From positions 3,678,565 to 3,742,564 of the forward strand of contig JAKZAN010000001.1 in NCBI GenBank assembly GCA_023053545.1: a stretch of DNA of 64,000 bases, given 5' to 3'. The position numbers and the translations under genes are program-made. This stretch comes from Lepidurus packardi. Taxonomy: Eukaryota > Arthropoda > Branchiopoda > Notostraca > Triopsidae. The notes under the pieces were generated by a model that saw nothing but the letters and a program-made list of their open reading frames with translations, had not been told where the DNA came from and made no database searches. Positions 28,798 to 36,177 of the stretch are shown here, piece after piece. How positions within the stretch are numbered: position 1 is the stretch's first letter; each line of letters opens with the position of its first letter.

Positions 28798-31700
28798 TTA
28801 AAATTTGTTAACCCTATAATGGGATAAACCCCGACTTTGTCGATCTGACGGGTTCAGTGGAATATACCTATTTTTAACTTCTTCGTTACTAACCATGACT
28901 TGAGTCCACACATTGGGAGCAAACCAAGAATTTGGTGGTCGCTCATTATTTACAACTTGGGTTGGATACACTGGTCCTAGCTGGTAATTCTGGTAGTTAT
29001 CATAACCCACATTCTGGTACGGGTAATTATGCCATGGCTGTGCCGCCGCAGGCGATTGCTGAATGTTTAGAACGGGGTTCCCACTTACTAACGGATTGGG
29101 CTCACCATTGAGTCCGCCCATCGGTCCCAAGGTGGCGTCTGACGGTTTAAACAAGAGCGTAACGGGGTTACTTGACGCTAGAGACCTTCCAGAATTCTCA
29201 GCGATATTTTCTTGAAGAATTTCAGGAAATTCCGTCTTATTTTCCGGTATTTCTGCCTTAACTAAGTACTCATCTTCACTTGAGTTGAAGTTGGATCCGC
29301 TGGGAGTGATTTGTGGTTCGGGAGCTTCAGTAGCTCTAGGTGGCATGGTTGTCTGGTTTCCGGTGTTCCAAACATAGTCTTCATCGATGCGCGACAATGG
29401 AACTACCGCCGCCGCATGGTAAATTTGGGTTGCCGCTCTTGGGACCGATCCTAACGCTCTACTGCTTGGACTTGCAGCTTGGATTACCTGCTGTTGGGGT
29501 GTTTGTTGTTCTTGAGCGTCAGTTGACGGGATCTGAGGCAGTGAGGGCTGTAAAGCTAAGTTGGGAAGGGTGGGAAGAGTATCACCCGGTTTAGAGGCAG
29601 TATAGGGTATTACTGGCCATAAAGCACTGGCGGAGGGACTGAGAGTACTTGGGAAATAATTGTAGAAGTTGGGGTTGGCTCGAGGCACGTTCACAAACCC
29701 TGAGTTCGCCAAGTTGGTTAAGGAAGGGGCTAACTGGTAAATGTAGTACACGGGTGAATCCGCGGTCACGAGTTGTTCATTGAGAGTTAGAGTCCAACTA
29801 GGCTGTAGAAAAGACGGTTGGGGTGAACGGGGTTGGCTCGTGTACTGAGGGACGCCGGAAGATGAAGGCTTTCCAATATTCCAGGGCAGATTAACCGGGT
29901 TAGGGTTAAGATTAGTGTTCAAAAGATGAGGGTTAAGATTGGAGTTAAGGTTAAAATTAGAATGGGGAGCAAGATTTGGGCCAGAGTTTGGGCTAAGGTT
30001 AAGGTTTGAATTTGGGTTAACGTTATGGTTGAGATTGAGGTTAGAGTTAGCATTTGGATTAGGATTGGAGTTGACGTTAAGATTAGGGTTGGAGTTGGAG
30101 TTTAAGCTAGGGTTGGGGTTAAAATTATTGTCAAATTCGGGTTTATTCACGGGACCGGTAAGGGTGACACCTGGTCGATTCCGTGGCGGATGGATAGGAG
30201 GAAGCGGGCCGAGATTGGAGTAACTGTTACGGTTTGAATGCAAAAACTCGTCTCGAACCGTTACGCGCGCGTTGGCGGGCGTTTCGACCTGAATGTGTGA
30301 AGTCGGTGGGAAAGGTAGGGGTGGAGTCAGTTGTAGGACCGGATCGGGTTTTCGTCCTAGCTGCGTAAGGGATTTGGCTCGGGCTCTCAAAGAATTGGCA
30401 GTTTGACTGGTAAACAAGCTGACGAACGGCCATTGATAGAAACTAGGTCGTTTACTGGCCACTTTCACGTCGGCCGGGATCTGTTGCTGGATTACGGAGA
30501 GGGGTAGGTTGCCATAAGGGTAAACGCCTACCGTAGGACTGCCGCTTGGAATGGTACCGTCCCATGAGAGGTGACCCACACGGGTTAAGTTCGAGTTCGA
30601 GTTGACATTCGTTGAGTGGTTCATGGAAGCCGTGTAGTTGTCCAAATTGAAGCGATGTTGAGGGAAACCGGGAGCGATTTTCTCCTGAATCTCATTTTCT
30701 TGGTTCTATTGTAAAACGAAAACGCGTTAGATCTTATGGAGAATTAGTATATCATCATAAATTCTTAATGTTATTAAAAGAACCCCTATCTCTTAATCAA
30801 CAAGTTATTAGATGTTATTAGTTAATACGACCAAGTTATTAGATGTTAATTTTCTTTAACAAGTTACCCCCCTTTGCGTGGGGGCGTATTTCATGAAAAC
30901 AAGCAAACTATTTCGGTTACTATTGAAAATAGAAATAAAGTGTTTGAACGCAAGTGTTACTGTTCTCTATAACGTACAAATAATTCCGCTGAAGTTGATT
31001 TTTTTTATAACAATAAGTCATGTTACTAACCGAGGTGAGGTCAATTCCAAGCCAGGAATTGCTGTTTTGACTGAGATACGTGTTGCAATCGCCGGGTATG
31101 AGCGTTACGGTCACCGGAACTCCGCTTTGCAAAATATTGCCTTTTTGACAGAACGAAAAGCTAAAAGAAAAACATACATATATTAGTTAAACTGTTAAGT
31201 GTTAAAAAATCCCAAGATCTTTTTTACACCAAGGAAACTATACCTGTTGCCAAAGCTATCGGTGAGAATAAGCTTATCAAAGGACCATCTTGGCAGACCG
31301 GATGTCAGCCAACCGTGGTAGGCAGTATAGGTCAAACGCGCCTTAGAGGGCGGAGTCAAAACGGGATGTGGCACCACCAAGCGGACCAATTTACCACTGC
31401 TATGCAGCTCCACATCAGGACCCCTTTAAACACAGTTCAAACACAGATCAAACACAGTTTACATTATTTTAAAAAATTGGAAAAGGTTATAGTTTTTGTA
31501 AAAAAAAATAAGATAGATAAGGAACTAACAGTCATGAGGTACAAATTAGATACACGTCGATGAGTTAATTACTTTGTTAAGGAGAAAGTTTCGTTGAAAT
31601 CATTTGCCCCCAGGAGTACGAGTTCAATCTTTCCATGACTGCTTATAGGCTGTGCACTATGACTACTGTACATAACGGCTCGGTATTGATTGGCTAAAAA

Positions 31701-34700: not shown

Positions 34701-36177
34701 GATTGTAACCACGCCAACCAGGAAGAATCTTCGCTGGGAAATTGCTCAGCACTCGCGTTGGGAACCAGCAAGAGCAAAACTGTAACCACAAACAATTCTA
34801 CAATTTAGAATGTGACGTGAACTTGACCTTAATCAATTAGTGCTATAAGACAAAAACGTAAAAAGCAAGTCGGTACTTTAAGACAAGATGATTCCGATTA
34901 AGAATGTCACTCGATATGACTAGATTCTCCCTTGATATGATTTTGTTTTCTTTTGCGTAGGTGGACAATAAATGTACATTTTTCAAATGACGGCAAAAAT
35001 AAGAAAGTTAAACTGTCATCCTCTACATATTTGTATTAGTTACATTATTGTCAAGAATTTGTAAATGTGTGCCAAAGGAAGATTAGCCGTAAGGGAATCA
35101 ATCTAGAATTAGAAACGCTAAATCTAGTTGGGTACAGTAAGTAAACTAGGTAGCAAGATGCTAGAATTTGAGAAAGCAACGGATGTTAACAGATATGTAC
35201 ATAATGATTTTAGATATCATATGAAGAGGTCCAGATGGTAATGTAATGATGATAATGTTGGCAATTTGCTTGAAGAAACCAACGGGACTTACACAAAATT
35301 GGTAACCAAAATGGAGCCAAATAGTTTTTTTTTTTAAAAAGTAGTAAACTAAAGGACTAAGAATAAAAGCCAAGCTTGGTAAGAAGAATTGAACAACAAG
35401 TAAGTTAAGTAATAAGATAACAAGGTCCTCATCATGCGGCCGAAGAAGGGAAATACCTTCACTTGAATACAAAGGAGGACGAGAATAACAAGAGTTTGCA
35501 GCATGGTAATGACTTGGATTGGAAGATATTGGGTAATGAACCGTTCTAAAGTCTGATTCAGACAAGACAAGCAGTAAAGAGTAGAATTTAAAAGGGGAAG
35601 TCCAGGAAATAAGGAGGCTTCCCTCATTCAAGTCTCTAGACACGCTCCAGACGTACGTTAACCTCCTGACATAGTCTCTCTTCTCTTATCCACAGTTGTA
35701 TTCAGCAAGGAGCTTCATCTCCATAACGTTTAGCACCATTTCAGACTTTCAGGGCGAATGTTCAAACAAGTCTTGGATACGCTTTTTGTTATCATCCATC
35801 TTCCTTACGCAAAACAAATGTCTAAAGCACGTCCTAACCTGGATCTTACTAATACTGTTAGGTGTAAAGAAAGAAGGAAAGGAAGAAGCAAGTTTAACTT
35901 TAGTTTCTTAGACGATTTAGTCCAGAAGTTATTATTGATACTTTTACACTGCGTATAGTATTCCTACGAAATCAGGAAAATTAAGAATCCATTGAGTCAA
36001 ACGGAAGTAAAATATAAATGGGGAAAAGATTTTAATTAATCTAATTAAATCGATTAAAATAAGACAATTAAAACAAGTTAAGCAAACTGTTTTAATTTAT
36101 TGAGTCAAATTTATAAAAAGTAATTGAGACTTACCTAGCATAACAATTGGCAATACTGCGACAACTTGACTCTTCAT
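28798..36177 (-). CDS. Secreted pancreatic-type lipase with propeptide and long Asn-rich C-terminal extension
   Basis: Triacylglycerol-lipase family. Model: complement(join(28798..30705, 31031..31160, 31244..31423, 31573..31693, 31890..32132, 32246..32473, 32659..32890, 33202..33499, 34455..34779, 36135..36177)), 3708 nt, 1235 residues. Signal peptide [14 protein letters not shown] then [11 protein letters not shown] (split by intron 1); an acidic pro-region of about 95 residues ends at RRKR before DEEVVCYG, a furin-type site. The alpha/beta-hydrolase domain starts CYGELLGCF and has the full triad: Ser in [10 protein letters not shown] (about 279), Asp in [10 protein letters not shown] (about 302), His in [10 protein letters not shown] (about 388). 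A Cys-bounded lid of 25 residues is present. A PLAT-like domain follows and ends near TLIPGDC. The last exon adds 635 residues, low-complexity and N/P/S-rich at about 30150-29885, which I do not know from other lipases. Confidence 0.88.
31742..31861. repeat. (TA)n microsatellite, about 120 bp
   Basis: Uninterrupted TA dinucleotides in the lipase intron between the exons at 31573-31693 and 31890-32132. The length is likely polymorphic and may be collapsed or expanded by assembly. Confidence 0.98.

Follow-up and report, generated by a model that had tools for sequence, protein, structure and literature searches.

A pancreatic-type lipase gene of Lepidurus packardi with a long asparagine- and proline-rich tail predicted in its last exon

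We analyzed a 64,000-nucleotide stretch of the Lepidurus packardi genome (hereafter the window; assembly GCA_023053545.1, contig JAKZAN010000001.1, forward-strand positions 3,678,565 to 3,742,564), which carries a predicted lipase gene with an uncommon 3' end. The gene model places ten exons on the minus strand between window positions 36177 and 28798. All nine introns are GT-AG, and the exons read as a single frame of 1,235 residues closed by a TAA stop. The first nine exons would encode a secreted lipase, and the tenth adds a low-complexity tail of 635 residues. Judged by sequence, the feature is real and unusual, an ordinary enzyme with an uncommon tail. We have high confidence in the model that joins the lipase in one frame to the exon 10 tail. 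Exon 10 begins in phase 0 with residue 601, across a GT-AG junction; within the minus-strand interval scanned (32300-28000), intron 9 holds no AATAAA, and one begins at 28614, 184 bases beyond the tail stop. On these grounds lipase and tail are best taken as one gene, whose tail is presumably translated. The only other AATAAA motifs in the scanned interval are at 30147, inside exon 10, and at 28067.

The enzyme part is best read as a secreted neutral pancreatic-type lipase (PF00151) resembling Drosophila CG5966. Residues 137-455 matched Pfam Lipase PF00151 at 277 bits, compared with a cut-off of 27 (E 3.2e-82). The closest solved structures by sequence in the PDB were pancreatic lipase-related proteins and pancreatic lipase, and the alignment to entry 1lpa covered query residues 5-442 of 474 (E 3e-68). 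The putative catalytic triad, assigned by motif position, is Ser279, Asp302, and His388, and the elbow G277-Y-S279-L-G fits GxSxG. The lid is bounded by Cys362 and Cys386, and the beta-9 loop (His329-His348) has 20 residues. A beta-9 loop longer than 15 residues (PMC7240578), together with a lid closed by a disulfide, is a criterion for triglyceride activity, and the loop length and the two lid cysteines found here would fit such activity. A PLAT-like C-terminal domain is suggested by the 1lpa alignment; Pfam PLAT gave no match at E up to 1.

Between the signal peptide, recognized by eye, and the catalytic domain lie about 100 residues that end in RRKR (residues 123-126); no other R-x-[KR]-R motif was found in the 1,235-residue protein. 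The residues after the motif align with the start of pancreatic-lipase chains, protein residue 131 (query residue 5) pairing with residue 3 of the PLRP2 chain 2pvs. Because RRKR directly precedes the residues that align with this chain start, the protein is probably made as a pro-enzyme and cut at a predicted furin-type site, RRKR126. Residues 26-126 have a hydropathy of 0.399, with the order/disorder boundary at 0.424. The pre-pro-enzyme would thus run from signal peptide through a propeptide of about 100 residues, catalytic domain, and PLAT-like domain to about 650 residues of unfolded tail lying outside the folded enzyme. We estimate that, before sugars are added, the secreted form would be roughly 120 kDa with the tail (1,109 residues) and 50-60 kDa without it (474 residues). 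Once the propeptide is removed, the enzyme part would hydrolyze triglycerides outside the cell.

The tail is dominated by a few residues, with 85 prolines, 84 asparagines, 66 serines, and no cysteine. Its exon is open for 635 codons, compared with a longest six-frame open reading frame (ORF) of 236 and a mean of 120 across 300 dinucleotide-preserving shuffles. Asparagines stand at every second position far more often than this composition would give: the whole tail has 32 N-x-N pairs, where 5,000 residue shuffles averaged 11.0 and never exceeded 22, and only 2 N-N neighbors (mean 11.0). N-glycosylation was considered as a reason for the asparagines and is not supported: the tail has 7 sequons, one of them in the array described below, whereas shuffled tails averaged 11.8 and only 7.8% of them had 7 or fewer. 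In the tail we found no Pfam domain at E up to 1 and no NCBIfam domain at E up to 10. A PDB sequence search gave no convincing match; the three matches at E up to 1 comprised one antibody chain and, from a single entry, two circumsporozoite repeat chains.

The asparagines are concentrated in an array of 83 residues (791-873), in which 34 residues are Asn, mostly at every second position, and none is Lys. The array has 26 N-x-N pairs (mean 13.4 and maximum 21 in 5,000 residue shuffles), and the intervening positions are mostly P, S, or L; the array as a whole has one charged residue, one Gly, and no Q. The DNA of exon 10 contains a 24-base tandem unit in 2.5 copies, and repeat spacings are multiples of 6 in 7 of 7 cases for one repeat family (D1) and 2 of 3 for another (D2). 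We note that N-x-N alternation alone yields a six-base period, so codon endings are more telling. Among codons for L, P, S, A, T, V, and G, those with C or T at the third position numbered 33 of 42 in the array, 171 of 309 elsewhere in the tail, and 172 of 313 in the lipase (array versus rest of tail, Fisher p 0.004). A Fisher test of Asn codons against others (p 0.003) was left unused because the genetic code itself gives every Asn codon a C or T ending, which makes the comparison circular. Replacing the last base of an AAY codon with a purine would give Lys, which the array lacks. The hexanucleotide register, the excess of pyrimidine-ending codons, and the absence of Lys together suggest that the array is an old AAYYYY hexanucleotide expansion, now degenerate, whose Asn was kept. 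The Asn core would then have arisen by expansion of AAYYYY, followed by retention as Asn.

Much of this structure had been proposed in an earlier reading of the window from its letters and ORFs alone (the sequence-only reading). Its intact triad, lid, and PLAT-like domain ahead of an in-frame exon at 28798-30705 agree with the Pfam and PDB matches and with the splice model. The fully open last exon, the in-phase acceptor, and the junction at 31031/30705 were confirmed in coordinates and in phase 0, and residue counts and shuffles bear out the Asn/Pro/Ser-rich tail with its N-x-N core. Homology searches with the tail, a kind of check it had named, yielded only the weak PDB likeness to circumsporozoite repeats and an antibody given above and no domain in Pfam or NCBIfam. 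Two features had escaped it: the propeptide with its RRKR motif, which lies in exons 1 to 3 (window positions 33490-36177 of the minus strand), and the array's likeness to a hexanucleotide repeat.

Table 1. Predicted features of the lipase gene, in window positions and in order of transcription.
Feature	Position	Strand	Content
Exon 1	36135..36177	-	start codon and first part of signal peptide; hydrophobic N-terminus judged by eye
Exon 2	34455..34779	-	remainder of signal peptide and most of propeptide, residues 15-122
Exon 3	33202..33499	-	RRKR motif, residues 123-126 (codon 123 split with exon 2); start of lipase domain
Exon 4	32659..32890	-	nucleophile elbow GYSLG, Ser279
Exon 5	32246..32473	-	Asp302; beta-9 loop His329-His348 (20 residues); lid start, Cys362
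Exon 6	31890..32132	-	lid end, Cys386; His388; end of PF00151 match at residue 455
Exon 7	31573..31693	-	start of PLAT-like C-terminal domain, placed by where the Pfam match ends
Exon 8	31244..31423	-	PLAT-like domain; 1lpa alignment reaches chain residue 440 of 449
Exon 9	31031..31160	-	end of PLAT-like domain (last Cys582), then 18 residues
Intron 9	30706..31030	-	325 bases; donor GTTAGT; retention would add 36 residues, stop ending at 30920
Exon 10	28798..30705	-	635-residue low-complexity tail, residues 601-1235, and stop
First tail part, residues 601-790	30136..30705	-	mildly basic, P/S/T-rich: 17 K+R, 11 D+E, 25 P, 32 S+T in 190
Asn array, residues 791-873 (83 residues)	29887..30135	-	mostly in hexanucleotide register
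Candidate poly(A) signal AATAAA	28609..28614	-	downstream of stop

Within the host genome (108,557,554 bases in 344 contigs), the tail seems particular to this gene. The genome has the stamp of an arthropod: of 266 first-look candidates for the cuticle domain Chitin_bind_4, 150 were scored, and all 150 exceeded the curated cut-off. With 8 candidates scored, the tail protein matched only itself at E up to 0.001. Lipase exons gave at least 22 matches from 23 candidates, 7 belonging to this gene and 15 to five other places. We examined six stretches (L028-L033) covering these five places for downstream ORFs on the coding strand, at 70 or more residues over 2.3-3.5 kb in L029-L033 and at 100 or more residues, forward, in L028. 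None of the ORFs listed came close to the tail in length and composition; the end of the PLAT domain with its stop was recognized (by eye) only in L031 and L032, and spliced or short tail exons elsewhere could escape such a survey. The closest were an 85-residue frame in L030 at 5917 with 49% P/N/S/Q/T, which overlaps an ORF resembling a separate secreted protein, and a 343-residue P/S/Y-rich frame (L030 1737-2765). The latter is a separate gene that has its own start and runs on the strand opposite to that lipase.

Two ORFs beside these lipase paralogs were of interest in their own right. The 343-residue ORF of L030 (minus strand) shows, by eye, a signal peptide and a Cys-rich, clip-like N-terminus, followed by a long PYSPPP repeat tail. 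In L031, a 342-residue ORF near 1717 on the minus strand resembles a mariner transposase, also by eye. Beyond the host genome, no relative of the tail was confirmed among 24 pattern matches in GTDB contigs and 4 in IMG/VR, which is unsurprising for an animal gene. Among the papers listed, titles and abstract openings showed no pancreatic-type lipase with such a tail; most subscription papers fell outside this search.

We hold with roughly even confidence that the tail serves as a flexible hydrophilic spacer or weak tether on a CG5966-like secreted lipase. Unfolded, hydrophilic, and free of cysteine, it would act as a spacer, a solubility aid, or a low-affinity tether, keeping the secreted enzyme soluble and limiting its diffusion near the site of action, somewhat as suggested for the tail of mammalian CEL. 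That the tail is disordered is suggested by a single-sequence AlphaFold model (mean pLDDT 35, with none of the 635 residues reaching 70), a type of run that gives low confidence for many folded proteins too, and by the charge-hydropathy of the array alone, which falls on the disordered side (0.384 vs 0.418). The limit on single-sequence modeling is one of several points that weigh against this interpretation. By charge-hydropathy, the whole tail lies slightly on the ordered side (0.428 vs 0.414). A synonymous-codon test scored on the usage of exons 1-9 does not support the tail frame as coding: it gave -34.7 bits in the tail's own frame, -104.3 and -69.0 in the other forward frames, and 0.0 in one reverse frame, while halves of the lipase used as controls reached -0.7 and +12.0 when read in their true frames. 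The test has little power because codon use is nearly even. Donor 9 (TCG/GTTAGT) is the sole one of nine with T at +3, and the joining of exon 9 to exon 10 is a prediction from sequence. Proline, serine, and threonine make up 29.6% of the tail (serine and threonine 16.2%), lower than in a typical mucin; a mucin-like domain rich in these residues, for which the threshold is about 40%, was rejected on that count. Additionally, the Ser-Asp spacing of the triad is 23 residues here and 28 in the published CG5966 triad, a difference of 5.

The main rival to a spacer or tether is a tail that is translated but mostly neutral, an exon extension that grew through hexanucleotide slippage and is tolerated since an unfolded C-terminus leaves the enzyme undisturbed. 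We regard this as possible but rather unlikely. It would fit a tail that has no recognizable domain, exists as a single genomic copy with nothing comparable at the other lipase places examined, stands mostly in hexanucleotide register within the array, and draws no support for coding from codon usage. However, the frame has remained open for 635 codons, and no Lys accompanies the 34 Asn of the array, even though 9 of the 42 other codons counted there carry A or G at the third position; this second point is suggestive only, as it depends on the starting state. A neutral tail would illustrate a hexanucleotide expansion that an enzyme tolerates at its end. It is improbable, in our judgment, that exon 10 is not, or not always, part of the lipase, with the main product ending by intron 9 retention after 36 extra residues and exon 10 acting as an alternative last exon or a separate gene. 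The T at +3 of donor 9 would agree with this, as would a PLAT-like domain already complete at about Cys582 and a read-through of intron 9 that meets a stop at 30920, but the junction is in phase between a GT donor and an AG acceptor, AATAAA is absent from intron 9 and present beyond the tail stop, and no separate signal peptide could be recognized by eye in exon 10.

The tail, in which no known binding domain was found, may also mediate adhesion, aggregation, or matrix binding, as the sequence-only reading had suggested. We consider it quite improbable that it is a selected, lineage-specific domain for self-assembly or matrix docking that immobilizes an otherwise diffusible lipase in the extracellular matrix of the gut lining, cuticle, or egg coat. 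In that case, the N-x-N array would supply an Asn ladder and the Tyr/Gln-rich tail end, residues 1136-1200, the cross-linking sites. Prion-like or amyloid self-assembly of the secreted enzyme driven by the Asn array appears very unlikely. Early prion-domain scans used a rule of thumb of 30 Q/N in 80 residues, and the 80 residues from 793 contain 34 N+Q; the only two strands in the model (tail residues 222-227 and 250-255) also fall in the array, but at very low confidence, with residue 225 alone among them reaching a pLDDT of 50. Aggregation is made less likely by the 12 prolines in these most N-rich 80 residues. The array has no Q, and the tail's two N-N pairs are unlike the N runs that yeast prions carry.

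Other observations concern the surroundings of the gene. A TA microsatellite of 60.5 copies at 31742-31862 lies in intron 6 of the lipase gene, and a run of 43 G occupies 60022-60064 of the window. On the minus strand, a zf-C3Hc3H match (27406-27660, E 9.6e-14) and a weak PEHE match (16246-16911, E 2e-4, below cut-off) lie about 10 kb apart. Such domains occur in NSL-complex subunit 2 and NSL subunit 1, respectively, and the two matches may perhaps mark neighboring genes for subunits of one complex. Fibronectin III and immunoglobulin matches were found at 45095-46720, also on the minus strand, with a weak DSCAM-type match (E 0.007, below cut-off). Elsewhere in the assembly (G000), COX1 fragments with in-frame TGA on contigs C1, C2, C4, C5, C6, C21, and C38 are probably nuclear copies of mitochondrial DNA. 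COX1 frames without stops were found on contigs C43, C52, and C214, which are perhaps bacterial.

Among characterized lipases, CG5966 offers the closest comparison by published spacings, and the placement of the present lipase beside it is suggested by these spacings rather than by an aligned ortholog. CG5966, at a length of about 540 residues, would have no long tail. Its beta-9 loop is reported as His254-His273 and its lid as Cys287-Cys310 (PMC7240578), and its triad as Ser199-Asp227-His312 (PMC12621733, a preprint). The loop is identical in length to that of this lipase, the lid spacing differs by one residue, and the triad His likewise lies two residues past the second lid Cys. The position of Ser199 leaves space for only a short propeptide, in contrast to the approximately 100 residues here. 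A Daphnia lipase with CG5966 as its best fly match has been reported (PMC3298946), and a count for Daphnia pulex gave 63 lipase genes or copies (PMC5312099). With human pancreatic lipase and PLRP2 (1lpa and 2pvs), the catalytic domain aligns in both cases and most of the C-terminal domain aligns with 1lpa. These proteins lack both the 100-residue RRKR propeptide and the tail; the 449-residue chain stops with the C-terminal domain.

Proteins with Asn-rich repeats provide looser parallels to the tail. The two circumsporozoite chains, from entry 9cca with its NANP repeats, were the best tail matches (tail residues 214-248, E 0.0072 and 0.029). Both values lie above the 0.001 threshold, and we view this as a likeness of composition and not homology. 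Pearl-oyster nacrein indicates that a secreted enzyme can bear an Asn-rich repeat domain (PMC6599672). Nacrein/N66 is a carbonic anhydrase that shows calcium binding and has Gly-Xaa-Asn repeats, in which Xaa is Asp, Asn, or Glu, whereas the repeat here is N-x-N. A nacrein-type Gly-Xaa-Asn repeat was rejected for the array, which has only 1 Gly in 83 residues.

The nearest functional parallel would be mammalian CEL. CEL belongs to PF00135, a family other than PF00151, and exon 10 shows no 33-base period, its repeats having periods or spacings of 24 or mostly multiples of 6. The present lipase is therefore not a CEL and would be at most CEL-like in its working. The last exon of CEL encodes a proline-rich repeat tail that is O-glycosylated and has been proposed to help with secretion, solubility, or stability (PMC3227413, PMC8692231). 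In these accounts CEL, also termed BSSL, is like this lipase in being secreted with a repetitive proline-rich tail from the last exon, and its tail varies between lineages. The low-complexity tail of the present gene likewise occupies the last coding exon, where exon 10 encodes 635 residues. The CEL tail consists of 11-residue O-glycosylated repeats, about 16-17 in human, and is thus shorter and not of N-x-N type. If the Lepidurus tail is translated and conserved, it would provide a second case, beside mammalian CEL, in which the last exon of a lipase encodes a long low-complexity tail. This second case would lie in a different lipase family and be built from a different repeat, which would let the role of such tails in secreted lipases be tested.

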